Origin: a virus
Length of the DNA: 22,072 nucleotides
Virus record (IMG/VR): IMGVR_UViG_3300024262_000283
Span: 1-22,072 of that record
Strand: one strand, 5' to 3'
Both the position numbers and the translations under genes were made by a program. Below, piece by piece: positions 8,978-22,011 of the stretch. Under the pieces are notes generated by a model, which did not search any database, was not told where the DNA came from, and saw nothing but the letters and a program-made list of their open reading frames with translations. Positions within the stretch are counted from its first letter, which is position 1. Each line of letters begins with the position of its first letter.

Positions 8978-9723
8978 ATGAACACCGAAATAAAGTCAAT
9001 GATTTTCATAATAATGCCAATTGTAAATATGATGGTAAAGATTATGTTTTTCATTTAGATATGGTGGTTGACGGTATTATGAAATATGAAACTGTATTTT
9101 TAAAACATGATGATTATCGTGTTGCTATTATCGGTGGATATTATCATGATACAATTGAAGACGCTCAACTGACATTCAACGATATAATGGAAGCCAGTAA
9201 CAAAGCAGTAGCACGTCTTGTTTTAGATGTTACTGATGTTCATGAAGAAAACCGTTTACTGCGTCATCTCTTCACTATGGGTAAGACCGTGAAGGATTAT
9301 CGTTCGATTATTGTGAAGATGGCTGACATGCGTGCAAATGGTCTTTACAGTAAAACCAACGGAAGTTCGATGTATAAGAAATATGTCGAGGAATATCAAT
9401 ACCGTAAACCCATATTCAAAAAAGCATTGAGTTGGTACGAAGAACGTCTTGACCAAGAAACACTGAAAGATTTCTGGGCAGAACTTGATTGGATTCATGA
9501 TGGAGAAATTCGGCTTGAACCCAAAAGTAAGTTTGATTTGATTTACTTCAAGAATTATGTCAACACCTATACCAAAACCGGACCCGGTGGTGGATGTGAT
9601 AATGACGGTGTGATTGTAAAAGACCTGCTTTACGGTATCGGGGTTGCTTTAGATGGTGAGGAATATAGGTATGCCGATGGTTACGAAAAATTCTTGAAAC
9701 ACATTAAACAAATACATGGATAA
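8962..9723 (+). CDS. HD-domain phosphohydrolase, SpoT/MESH1-like
   Basis: This 253-residue protein starts at ATG 8962 within the end of the endonuclease gene. The metal-binding HD pattern is clear: His31 (VFHLDMVV), His62-Asp63 with Glu66-Asp67 (YYHDTIEDA), and Asp122 in VKMADMRAN. This order is that of (p)ppGpp hydrolases of the SpoT/MESH1 type, where the HDxxED box distinguishes hydrolase activity. A phage enzyme of this kind could remove the starvation alarmone of the host. No synthetase, TGS or ACT domain is present. Residues from about 180 onward form an extra C-terminal region that I do not recognise. The substrate is predicted only. Confidence 0.75.
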   Translation: MEEYLNEHRNKVNDFHNNANCKYDGKDYVFHLDMVVDGIMKYETVFLKHDDYRVAIIGGYYHDTIEDAQLTFNDIMEASNKAVARLVLDVTDVHEENRLLRHLFTMGKTVKDYRSIIVKMADMRANGLYSKTNGSSMYKKYVEEYQYRKPIFKKALSWYEERLDQETLKDFWAELDWIHDGEIRLEPKSKFDLIYFKNYVNTYTKTGPGGGCDNDGVIVKDLLYGIGVALDGEEYRYADGYEKFLKHIKQIHG

Positions 9724-10279
9724 TATGGAATATACAGACGTAATGCTCGATTTGGAAACAATGGGCAACAAAAGTAATGCAGCGATTGTATCAATTGGTG
9801 CTGTTGAATTTAATCTTGAAACAGGTGAAACTGGACGTGAATTTTACAAAGTAGTTGATTTACAATCTTCTCTGGATTATGGGTTAAATGTTAATGGCAG
9901 CACCATTTATTGGTGGTTGCAACAAAGTGAAGCAGCACGAAAAAGAATTTGTGAAAAAGGTGATAATCTTGCTGGTGTGTTAGGTGAGTTTAATCTCTGG
10001 ATGCAAGACTGTGTTGAGAAGGTTAAGATTTGGGGTAATGGTGCTCGTTTCGATATTGGTATTCTTGAGGATGCTTATGTTGCATGTCAACTTGAAACCC
10101 CTTGGTACTTCAGGTCTGAAATGGATGTGAGGACACTGGTCGCACTTAAACCAGAAATAAAAGCCACGTTCCCAAATATTGGGGTTGAACATGACCCTAT
10201 TGACGATTGTAAACATCAGATTGGGTATTGCTGCGCAACGTGGAGGTCATTAAATAAGCCAAAAGAAGTAAAGGGATAA
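9716..10279 (+). CDS. DEDDh 3'-5' exonuclease (DexA/Rv2179c-like)
   Basis: The protein has 187 residues. Catalytic residues of the DnaQ superfamily are in place: Asp12 and Glu14 in MLDLETMG, Asp113 in GNGARFDIGIL, and His159...Asp164 in HDPIDDC, the DEDDh form. The WGNGARFD segment and the length fit the phage DexA / Rv2179c-like exonuclease group, which degrade single-stranded DNA or RNA from the 3' end. The start at 9716 overlaps the HD gene by eight bases; a second ATG at 9725 is possible. It is distinct in sequence from the other DEDDh exonuclease at 15424. Confidence 0.88.
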   Translation: MDNMEYTDVMLDLETMGNKSNAAIVSIGAVEFNLETGETGREFYKVVDLQSSLDYGLNVNGSTIYWWLQQSEAARKRICEKGDNLAGVLGEFNLWMQDCVEKVKIWGNGARFDIGILEDAYVACQLETPWYFRSEMDVRTLVALKPEIKATFPNIGVEHDPIDDCKHQIGYCCATWRSLNKPKEVKG

Positions 10280-15423: not shown

Positions 15424-15942
15424 ATGTCGTATTTTATTTGTGACGTAGAATCAGATGGCGGTTTATTAGGACTTAATAGTATGGTGTGCTTCGGGGTAGT
15501 CAAGTTGACCCCCGAACTCGACACCACTTTCTATGGGCAGACCAAGCCAATATCAGATAAATATGATGAACGAGCACTCAGCGTGAGTGGGTTTAGTAGA
15601 GAAGAACATCTGACATTCGATGACCCAGTAAAGGTTATGTCGGATTTCGCTGATTGGCTTGACGAACATTCCAAAGGCAGACCTATTCTGATTAGCGATA
15701 ATAACGGTTACGATGCCTCTTGGATTAATTATTACTTCCTTAGATATTATGGAGCAAATCCTTTTGGTTGGTCAAGTCGTAGAATCGGTGACCTGTACTG
15801 TGGAATGAAAATGGACATGTGGTCAGGATGGAAAAAATTACGGGTGACTAAACATACCCATCACCCCGTAGATGATGCAATGGGTAATGCAGAAGCATTG
15901 CTCAAAATGAAAGAAATGGGTTTAAAAATTGACACAAAATAA
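15424..15942 (+). CDS. DEDDh 3'-5' exonuclease, second copy type
   Basis: The protein has 172 residues. Catalytic positions are visible: Asp7 and Glu9 in FICDVESDGG, Asp97 in SDNNGYDASWINYYF, and His146...Asp151 in HHPVDDAMGNAEAL, the DEDDh signature. The family is DnaQ/RNase T-like, so 3'-5' degradation of single-stranded nucleic acid is expected. A possible remnant of a similar start lies at 14439 on the far side of the endonuclease gene. The sequence is only distantly like the exonuclease at 9716, so the two are not recent duplicates. Confidence 0.85.
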   Translation: MSYFICDVESDGGLLGLNSMVCFGVVKLTPELDTTFYGQTKPISDKYDERALSVSGFSREEHLTFDDPVKVMSDFADWLDEHSKGRPILISDNNGYDASWINYYFLRYYGANPFGWSSRRIGDLYCGMKMDMWSGWKKLRVTKHTHHPVDDAMGNAEALLKMKEMGLKIDTK

Positions 15943-19293: not shown

Positions 19294-19323
19294 GTCTTTA
19301 AGTGTCTTAAATCGTCTTAAAAC
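19294..19323. repeat. Three tandem 10-bp units of GTCTTWAANN type
   Basis: GTCTTTAAGT, GTCTTAAATC and GTCTTAAAAC follow each other with a 10-bp period. The last unit enters the end of the patatin gene. The spacing of one helical turn would suit a protein-binding site, but so few units could be chance. Confidence 0.5.
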
Positions 19324-20255
19324 CGCTTTTTGATGGGGTTGAATATCTCCATTCTTTCTGGGTCCAGAGCCGTTTCATATCCTTCTTCCCACCATTCAGC
19401 CATTTCTTTCTTATTAAACACCATTGGATTCTCACTTAATTTTCGTGGTAGCCAGTAAACGGTTACTTTTATACCCTTCCTATTATATTTTTCAATACTA
19501 TCATAAAAATGTTCGAATTCAACATCATAACGCATTGCACTAAGACTAGCATTAAAATTTTCAATTAAATTATGAATTCTTTCACCCTCAAATTTATCAC
19601 GAACCTTTGTTCGATGCAAGATAATATCAATATCCTTATAACCTCTTTTCACTAACATATCCATACCAACCAACTCACTTATCCCACCATCGCTCCACTG
19701 TCCGATGTGAAACTTACCCTCTTCATCCCGCCAACTCTTTTTAATTAAAGAGGTAATAAATGGATAATTTGCACTACACCACATCCAATCAATGAAATCT
19801 TCATAAGTCTCATCTATCGAACTGAAGTAATGTATTTTTGATGGAATCTGTGCTAGATTCTGAGTTCCAACTAATATTTCTTGTTGTCTGGTTCTGAGCC
19901 TATTAAATTTAGTTTTACTAAATGATGACATGATTGTTTTTCTCAAGGAATTTGAAGTAGAGATACTTTTATCTCCAAGCAACAACGTCATTATTATCGG
20001 AAATTTTCTAAATCTCCCCTTTTTATTAATGACCTTACCCTTATACCAACACTTATCAAATATCTTACTATTATCCACATTCGTATATGCATGTTTTAGC
20101 ACTTCCCATTCCCTCAACGCAGTGAGGGGAGCCATTAGACTCCCCGTTGAAACTCCTACTACAGCATCATATTTCCGATTAATCCTAGCCAGTGTTCCAC
20201 CACCATATGCACCCCATGCACCACCACCCGATATTAAACATCCTTTCTTTGTCAT
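19317..20255 (-). CDS. Patatin-like phospholipase
   Basis: Start set at ATG 20255 (312 residues), because the longer frame runs into the upstream terminator. Patatin hallmarks are complete. The glycine-rich oxyanion loop is SGGGAWGAYGGG (9-20), the nucleophile elbow is GVSTG with Ser36, and the catalytic Asp189 is in SDGG. Patatins hydrolyse acyl chains from phospholipids with a Ser-Asp dyad. There is no signal peptide, so the enzyme acts from the cytoplasm or needs another route out. In a phage it might weaken the host membrane at lysis; patatins also serve as effectors in bacterial defence. The gene stands alone, without CBASS partners. Confidence 0.88.
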   Translation of the reverse strand: MTKKGCLISGGGAWGAYGGGTLARINRKYDAVVGVSTGSLMAPLTALREWEVLKHAYTNVDNSKIFDKCWYKGKVINKKGRFRKFPIIMTLLLGDKSISTSNSLRKTIMSSFSKTKFNRLRTRQQEILVGTQNLAQIPSKIHYFSSIDETYEDFIDWMWCSANYPFITSLIKKSWRDEEGKFHIGQWSDGGISELVGMDMLVKRGYKDIDIILHRTKVRDKFEGERIHNLIENFNASLSAMRYDVEFEHFYDSIEKYNRKGIKVTVYWLPRKLSENPMVFNKKEMAEWWEEGYETALDPERMEIFNPIKKRF

Positions 20256-20267
20256 AAAGATAAATAC

Positions 20268-20323: not shown

Positions 20324-21112
20324 TTAAAAATGCCTCAACTCATTCATAATTTGAACCACGAAATTTGTTTGGGTTGCGGACTGCAATGATACGAACTTCA
20401 ATGCTGCTTCTTCATCACCATCCTGTATCAGATTCCAATAGGTTCTTGAAACTTCAGGAAGTGGTAACAAGTCCACGTTTCTTTTTAGATGAAGAAAATC
20501 TGCAATTAACATCAAGGGCGTATTGTCATACCCATTAAACTTCCACACATTCACGGTATCAATTACACCAGACTCCCAAGGTTTGAGGTTAAGGACACGT
20601 TTTAAGATAAAAGGTATCTTATACTCAGCACCTAGTTTATCCCGGTGCAATATAAGTCTTTTAAGAAGTAAGGGAATATCGTGCTTCAGCACATTATGTC
20701 CACAGAGTGTTGGGAAGTATTGTGGGGTTGATTTCACACCCTCACTTGATTTCTGTGCCAGTGCATTCATGAATTCAGCAATAACTACCAATTCATCAGC
20801 ATCCACAATTTTCTTCAAATATCGTTTCAATGTCCCGTCTTCGGCACGAAGTTCGGCATGTGTTATTGCCACAATTTTTGTGAACTCAGGATAATAAACA
20901 GCATGTTCTTCATATACAGTATTGGCTTTTGTATCATCAGAGTATTTCTTATTATATTTGGTTCGAGCCAAATACTCCCAACGATTGAATAAATTTTCAT
21001 TTTCTTTCTCAAGGACTTCAAGATTTGGATATGTAAGAACGGGTTTTACATTAAAGAAAAATGTTTCGTAGATTGCTTGGGGGTCGAAAACCGTTTCGAA
21101 TAATTCTGCCAT
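20324..21112 (-). CDS. PolB-type 3'-5' exonuclease homologue, probably catalytically dead
   Basis: The 262-residue protein follows the layout of the predicted PolB-like exonuclease family. It begins with a first strand and a YPNLEVL segment, followed by EEHAVYYPEFTKIVAIT. Then come LCGHNVLKHDIPLLLKRL, SGVIDTVNVWKFNGYDNTPLMLIADFL and a final LQSATQT helix. The catalytic acids look lost. The first D-x-E is replaced by Asn21-Val-Lys23 (FFFNVKP), and the last Asp by Ser245 (LQSATQT in place of QDATQT). Only Asp145 (KHD) remains. The alignment is from memory of the family, so this needs checking. If right, the protein binds nucleic acid without cutting or has a scaffold role. A host-like promoter and its own terminator make it a single-gene unit. 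Confidence 0.7.
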   Translation of the reverse strand: MAELFETVFDPQAIYETFFFNVKPVLTYPNLEVLEKENENLFNRWEYLARTKYNKKYSDDTKANTVYEEHAVYYPEFTKIVAITHAELRAEDGTLKRYLKKIVDADELVVIAEFMNALAQKSSEGVKSTPQYFPTLCGHNVLKHDIPLLLKRLILHRDKLGAEYKIPFILKRVLNLKPWESGVIDTVNVWKFNGYDNTPLMLIADFLHLKRNVDLLPLPEVSRTYWNLIQDGDEEAALKFVSLQSATQTNFVVQIMNELRHF

Positions 21113-21145: not shown

Positions 21146-21176
21146 CAAATATAGTTAAAAATTATTCAATATTAAA
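21146..21176 (-). promoter_or_regulatory. Bacteroidetes-type promoter, near consensus
   Basis: The minus strand reads TTTA (21176-21173), 19 nt, TATATTTG (21153-21146). It lies 33 bases before the ATG at 21112, so this message has a short leader, unlike the three leaderless cases. Confidence 0.55.
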
Positions 21177-21491
21177 GAGAAAATGAAAAAACTTTAGGAT
21201 TCCCGGTTTTTTATTTGCCTTAACCTCTTCATAGATATCCTGTACGTCTTCGAGAGTATAGGAATCGAGTTCATCCTTATCGTAGAGATTATTGGTATGT
21301 TTTAAAATGTATGGGATTAATTTTTCTTGGGTAAGTTTCTTACGCTTCTTTTTCTTGTCAATCTCCTGTAGGAATTGTCCACCCAATTGTTCGAACTCAA
21401 TAGCGGTTTTCCTTTTATTCCTCTCAGCATCCTCTTCCAGATACTTATGATAGGCAAGAACACTCATGTCATTGTCTTCATCAATAGGCAT
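21162..21491 (-). CDS. Hypothetical charged protein, 109 aa
   Basis: The start at ATG 21491 lies four bases after the stop of the upstream gene; a longer form from 21512 would overlap it. The protein is very hydrophilic, with a basic patch IDKKKKRKKLTQEKL in the middle and acidic helices on both sides, ending in a short hydrophobic helix (GILKFFHFLFNIE). No family is recognised. It forms an operon with the AT-hook-like protein. Confidence 0.65.
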   Translation of the reverse strand: MPIDEDNDMSVLAYHKYLEEDAERNKRKTAIEFEQLGGQFLQEIDKKKKRKKLTQEKLIPYILKHTNNLYDKDELDSYTLEDVQDIYEEVKANKKPGILKFFHFLFNIE

Positions 21492-21495
21492 AACA

Positions 21496-22011
21496 CTACT
21501 TTTTATCGTCAAGGACTTCGGTCTCTTCTGTTACGGTTTGAGTTTTCTTATTGGTACTGCCTTTGGGTCTACCCCTACTTTTCTTGACTGGTGGAGCATC
21601 ACCATTCTGAGCAGCTAATTCACGTTGTTGTTTCTTGAAGGATTCTTCTCTGAGTTTGTCTAGTTCCTCATAATATGCCTTGGCTTTATTTTCGAGTTCG
21701 CCCTTCATAGCTTCCATTGTTTCAGTAAATTCCCTTTCCTTCTCAGCAATCATCTGATTGGTCTTGATAATTACTTTAACGAATAAAATCAAATCATCAA
21801 TAACTACCCCAGTTTTCTTTGGTGAAACCTTAATTAACTTACCTTCTTCGGCTTCGGCAAGAATTTCACATTCAACATCGTTATTATCATCAAATACCCA
21901 ATTATTTGGGATTCCCACCTGTAGCTCATACCAACCATTCACAGTATCTCGTGTAATTGATATTAAGTATCCACTTATTGGTGCTAATGCTTGGTCGATT
22001 TGTTTCATCAT
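21496..22011 (-). CDS. Coiled-coil protein with AT-hook-like tail
   Basis: The start is at the ATG pair 22011/22008, giving 171 or 170 residues; an upstream ATG would add an odd His/Phe-rich extension. The first 65 residues are a beta-rich domain (GWYELQVGIPNNWVF). A long charged helix, probably a coiled coil, covers about 75-135. The tail has a KKSRGRPKGSTNKK segment, close to the GRP core of AT-hooks that grip AT-rich minor grooves. It is therefore likely a DNA-binding, oligomeric phage protein, perhaps architectural. The segment upstream to the window end shows no further gene. Confidence 0.65.
   Translation of the reverse strand: MMKQIDQALAPISGYLISITRDTVNGWYELQVGIPNNWVFDDNNDVECEILAEAEEGKLIKVSPKKTGVVIDDLILFVKVIIKTNQMIAEKEREFTETMEAMKGELENKAKAYYEELDKLREESFKKQQRELAAQNGDAPPVKKSRGRPKGSTNKKTQTVTEETEVLDDKK

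Follow-up and report, generated by a model that had tools for sequence, protein, structure and literature searches.

A conserved free-standing homologue of PolB-type exonucleases with replaced catalytic acids in uncultured T4-like jumbo phages

Can a phage gene that has kept the fold of a 3′-5′ exonuclease while losing three of its catalytic acids be maintained over time, and, if so, for what? The question is raised by one end of the virus sequence IMGVR_UViG_3300024262_000283 (positions 1 to 22,072 of the IMG/VR record; hereafter the window, meaning the whole 22,072-nucleotide stretch analyzed). An earlier note, made from the letters alone, had described an exonuclease homologue with substituted catalytic acids at one locus, and ORF listing confirmed the reading frame, its strand, and its coordinates (20324..21112, minus strand; 262 aa). 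This gene is referred to below as the pseudo-exonuclease gene, or gene 0 of its cassette.

The proposed exonuclease homology was borne out by profile comparison using hhalign, in which the group carrying the replacements (the dead group) matched active stand-alone PolB-like relatives with an E value of 2.6e−39. AlphaFold, supplied with a 27-sequence alignment, returned a model of the window protein with a pLDDT of 91.3, and VIA-align comparison of this model with PolB exonuclease domains gave Z scores of about 14 to 15 (best, 15.0 for 5mdn; rmsd, 3.1 over 175 residues), indicating that the PolB-type (DnaQ/RNase H-like) exonuclease fold is kept. As a control, the AlphaFold model of an active relative scored a Z of 17.4 against the same top PDB chain. 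Foldseek placed DNA polymerase alpha first in the PDB (E value, 4e−4), and the top match in BFVD was the phi4:1 "exonuclease pol-B" (TM, 0.72). Using the window protein alone, only phrog_25228 ("3′-5′ exonuclease"; E value, 3e−9) was recovered from PHROGs, and no Pfam exonuclease family, including PF10108 (DNA_pol_B_exo2), matched at E values up to 1. Sequence searches of the PDB yielded chance matches only for the protein alone and weak or unrelated ones for the A1 and A4 alignment profiles. Homology and predicted fold together identify the product of gene 0 as a stand-alone relative of the PolB-type (DEDDy) 3′-5′ exonuclease domain.

The layout of the family is preserved as first described, with KHD (residues 143 to 145) and the IDTVNVWKFNGYDNTPL region both found in the protein. 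Active DEDDy enzymes carry D-x-E in Exo I, an Asp in Exo II, and Y-x3-D in Exo III, and of these the window protein has only the Exo II Asp. It lies at the end of the motif CGHNVLKHD (residues 137 to 145; 20678..20704, minus strand), where Asp145 occupies the catalytic position. The former Exo I D-x-E reads N21-V22-K23 (21044..21052, minus strand), and the replacement of D by N21 and of E by K23, already suspected from the letters, was recovered in alignments A3 and A4 and by hhalign. The former Exo III YCxxD corresponds to F240-V-S-L-Q244-S-A-T-Q-T-N250 (20363..20395, minus strand), with MAFFT alignment A4 and hhalign agreeing that Tyr aligns with F240 and Asp with Q244. The earlier note had read this last change as Asp to Ser within LQSATQT, which is incorrect, as Ser245 is the next residue; Ala246 was also considered as the Asp equivalent and dropped on the same two alignments. 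The Exo III register differs in the 7-sequence alignment A1, and a shift of one turn would be compatible with where the structural alignments end. However, residues 236 to 257 contain neither Asp nor Glu, so the loss of the Exo III acid does not depend on register. A further change was seen at residue 188 (20549..20551, minus strand), where Asn converts DTxE to DTxN; of 15 active relatives, 14 carry an acid there. Whether acids lie close to the metal sites of the window protein was judged from the alignment.

To place these replacements, relatives were collected from IMG/VR by pattern-plus-tblastn scans, which also provided the active stand-alone proteins (L058 to L102). Besides the window protein, the dead group comprises 32 distinct full-length proteins, 31 at about 41 to 62% identity and one, L057, at 28 to 29%. 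Across the 33 sequences, the first Exo I acid is replaced by N in 30, S in 2, and K in 1 (L057), and the second by K in 31, V in 1 (L047), and F in 1 (L057). At the Exo III Asp position Q is present in 32 and E in L057, and the Exo II Asp is retained in 33/33. The same four columns read D, E, D, and D in all 15 aligned active relatives. Homologues thus share the N-x-K signature asked about in the earlier note, in the form N/S-x-K for most dead-clade members, with one N-x-V and the deviant L057. The loss of three acids that it described likewise extends to the 32 relatives, in which the Exo I pair and the Exo III Asp are gone, and the identical losses in so many distinct sequences argue that those of the window protein did not arise by chance. 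One further close relative, L024:7995-8747, has an abnormal C terminus after KKQLIYYRIT that is frameshift-like and possibly a sequencing error, and it was excluded from the residue counts. Another relative, L008:2902-3576 from a 735-kb uncultured phage (LR756501.1), carries FDIET in Exo I and CEQDIE near its C terminus, and this megaphage protein is therefore apparently of the active type.

Could the window protein still cut, either by means of other residues or with a single metal held by Asp145? Most of the acids that the dead clade conserves are shared by the whole family, E76, E107, and D185 being retained together with Asp145; moreover, one archaeal PolB2 called inactivated was reported to have very weak activity (PMC4104785). 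Against this, the Exo I and Exo III acids are replaced clade-wide, neither the Exo I strand nor the Exo III helix has gained a conserved acid in alignment A4, and a Lys at the metal site is expected to keep metal out, making residual cutting quite unlikely. As it presumably cannot build the two-metal site, the window protein very probably lacks nuclease activity. Features that distinguish the dead clade include two basic residues, R97 and K101, conserved there and not in active relatives, and a conserved N-terminal LF(D/E) segment missing from the aligned active relatives.

The maximum-likelihood tree united 26 dead sequences in a single clade (support, 95/89), which joined L057 with support of 100/99; L061, which keeps all four catalytic acids, was sister to these (97/78). 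L057 and L061 sit on long branches and their placements are therefore less sure. One change on this tree suffices to account for the acid loss, and as the intact sister L061 occupies much the same T4-like jumbo-phage cassette, activity was probably lost once. L057, whose Exo III position holds E instead of Q, may represent an intermediate. Contigs of the relatives reach 365 kb; Gp23 capsid genes were identified in 9 of 19 records, that of L061 included, and PolB genes in 16 of 19. The dead and L061 lineages are both classed as T4-like from their gene content. We infer that the pseudo-exonuclease descends from a stand-alone PolB-type DEDDy 3′-5′ exonuclease of T4-like jumbo phages. Derivation from the exonuclease domain of the phage's own PolB is disfavored because the active stand-alone profile matched the dead genes far better (E values, 1e−27 to 1e−43) than it did PolB domains (only about 1e−4).

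No copies in prophages or hosts were found by a pattern scan of 84,980 bacterial and archaeal genomes, and the cultured phages searched contained no dead-clade member. The nearest cultured-phage proteins, from Flavobacterium and Cellulophaga phages and annotated as stand-alone "3′-5′ exonuclease / pol-B", reached at most 28.7% identity, and those inspected had intact motifs. The closest PolB type was likewise not found in cultured phages, the best being those of Salinibacter phages at 22 to 25% identity.

A decaying, functionless relic would fit the loss of three catalytic residues and the frameshifted appearance of the L024 C terminus. The frame is open, however, in every other distinct member examined, and one set of replacements is found throughout the clade. 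The former active-site motifs count among the best-conserved segments of the dead clade, and its top-conserved 8-residue stretch, residues 243 to 250, falls within the former Exo III motif (mean conservation, 0.94). Eighteen positions were conserved in both groups but differed in residue type, of which 8 lay within the Exo I to III motif intervals (P = 4e−4), as did 5 of 15 once the catalytic positions were removed (P = 0.015); both values assume independent positions, and the intervals were drawn by the authors. Position 188 is one of the 18; here another acid that active relatives conserve has become an amide in the dead clade. NG86 estimates of dN/dS were 0.07 to 0.23 in most pairs with finite dS (0.47 for L019/L035), with dS close to saturation in most pairs. 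Low dN/dS, the shared replacement set, and the conservation of the altered site together make a relic very improbable. The suggestion that selection acts on something beyond two-metal-ion chemistry therefore found support in the conserved replacements, the single loss on the tree, and, for most pairs, protein divergence far below silent divergence. Given that the disabled site is kept in more than 30 relatives, the protein has probably been retained for a job other than cutting.

That job does not appear to be proofreading. Each of 18 dead or near-dead records searched held one stand-alone family copy, which rules out, for these records, a dead paralogue kept beside an active one. The polymerase of the relatives is a separate gene (open frame of about 1,220 to 1,590 aa), and wherever the N-terminal part of PolB was present it showed a FDIETTGL-type Exo I and an FDF or FDY Exo II. 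Compensation for a non-proofreading PolB could thus be ruled out in those relatives. The window itself encodes an Rv2179c-like exonuclease (9716-10279; E value, 5e−53) and a weaker DnaQ-like ORF (15424-15942). With the PolB exonuclease apparently intact in relatives and other DEDD-type exonucleases in the window, exonuclease chemistry is supplied elsewhere and the pseudo-exonuclease is not needed for proofreading. The L001 homologue of the DnaQ-like ORF (L001:10177-10584) is shorter (135 aa, ending MKMDTWAR) and perhaps interrupted or frameshifted. Two further window ORFs situated between phage genes, 8342-8977 and 14494-15411, looked homing-endonuclease-like by eye (GIY-YIG type and HNH-like, respectively).

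The genomic context offers candidate partners. Gene 2 (21162..21491, minus strand; about 110 aa) is the upstream neighbor of gene 0 and adjoins it in 28/28 loci, and gene 1 (21496..22011, minus strand; about 171 aa), whose product looks coiled-coil-like and has a basic tail, is present in 28/28 loci and in L061. In all 28 of the dead or near-dead loci that were compared, both run in the same orientation as gene 0. Genes 0 to 2 are usually preceded by gene 3 (DUF3008), an amidase or lysin-like gene, and small membrane proteins; at the L061 locus, homologues of genes 1, 3, and 4, the amidase, and cluster 32 are all found, partly rearranged. Pfam and PHROGs searches with genes 1 and 2 gave nothing convincing, gene 1 had no match in cultured phages, and a shared promoter-like motif did not rise above chance. 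Directly downstream of gene 0 and co-oriented with it lies a patatin-like phospholipase gene (19317-20258; Pfam E value, 7e−18), with a homologue in 11 of 28 loci. Cluster 37 ORFs were seen in the late cassettes of L019 (2321-3412), L023, L024, L035, L050, and L053, at varying positions suggestive of a mobile element.

This arrangement bears on what the protein may do. None of the results pointed to the processivity, clamp, or inhibitor function offered as examples in the earlier note. By analogy with T4 gp2, to which it is not homologous, it might act as a DNA-end cap or counter-defense factor that shields phage 3′ ends from host nucleases, or as a decoy competing with an active exonuclease. 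An exonuclease fold could bind ends without cutting, and a late-gene cassette is a consistent location. However, no link to any defense system was seen, and because the intact L061 occupies much the same place, the location did not arise together with the loss of activity; such a role is considered unlikely. Alternatively, the fold may have become purely a protein platform for genes 1 and 2 or for replisome, packaging, or lysis components, its cleft no longer binding nucleic acid. The invariant neighbors and the dead-clade-specific LF(D/E) segment would suit a scaffold, and the gene for a small helical protein has been described in the same operon as an inactivated PolB2 (PMC4104785). Conservation is nevertheless strongest across the former catalytic motifs, the Exo II Asp and HN among them, and this exceeds what a scaffold that ignored the cleft would predict. 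We regard this possibility as nearly as likely as the nucleic-acid-binding role that we tentatively prefer, which itself falls somewhat short of an even chance. In that preferred reading the pseudo-exonuclease would bind nucleic acid without metal in the old active-site cleft while joined to partner proteins in a complex. The cleft, into which the highly conserved Asn21, Lys23, Asp145, and Gln244 would face, would still hold a ligand, most likely single-stranded or 3′-terminal nucleic acid, with Lys23 assuming the charge role of the lost metal. The partners would be the products of the invariant upstream genes 1 and 2, and all components would be expressed from one co-oriented cassette, in which lysis genes are found as well. 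Counting against a binding role is the predicted pI of the dead clade, which is mildly acidic to neutral (5.2 to 7.0; 4.8 to 6.0 in active relatives). It is more doubtful still that every element holds together, namely, a lineage-defining phage protein in which a two-metal site became a metal-free pocket for nucleic acid (or protein), with Lys in place of metal, within an as yet undescribed late complex involving genes 1 and 2.

Among known systems, the PF10108/phrog_25228 exonucleases of Cellulophaga phages phi38:1 and Calle and Flavobacterium phages FPSV-S1 and pippi8-1 have the same domain at about 25% identity and share the Exo II motif and the KPWE...DT..WK region with the window protein. 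They keep D-x-E and YCxxD, in contrast to the N-x-K and Q of the window protein. Family B polymerases, DNA polymerase alpha among them, have an exonuclease domain of the same fold, and in DNA polymerase alpha this domain is also catalytically dead; the window protein, however, is a separate 262-aa, single-domain ORF and is not fused to a polymerase. The C-terminal half of Pol epsilon and archaeal PolB2 are inactivated PolB modules for which an assembly role has been proposed (PMC2669801, PMC4104785). As in the window protein, exonuclease catalytic residues are lost and the protein is conserved, but these modules are polymerase-sized with a dead polymerase domain rather than a stand-alone phage exonuclease domain. 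One comparative survey of jumbo phages mentions a stand-alone exonuclease that might act together with a polymerase; searching its main text for an "inactive" exonuclease returned none (PMC7824862). In the literature searched, no phage was described as carrying a free-standing dead exonuclease that is conserved.

Inactivated exonuclease domains are thus documented within DNA polymerases, and the conserved free-standing phage case appears to be new. With the dead clade, its near relative L057, and the intact sister L061 all at hand, the transition from exonuclease to non-catalytic protein is directly testable. The gene marks a widespread lineage of uncultured T4-like jumbo phages, in which annotation pipelines would otherwise call it an exonuclease or give it no name.
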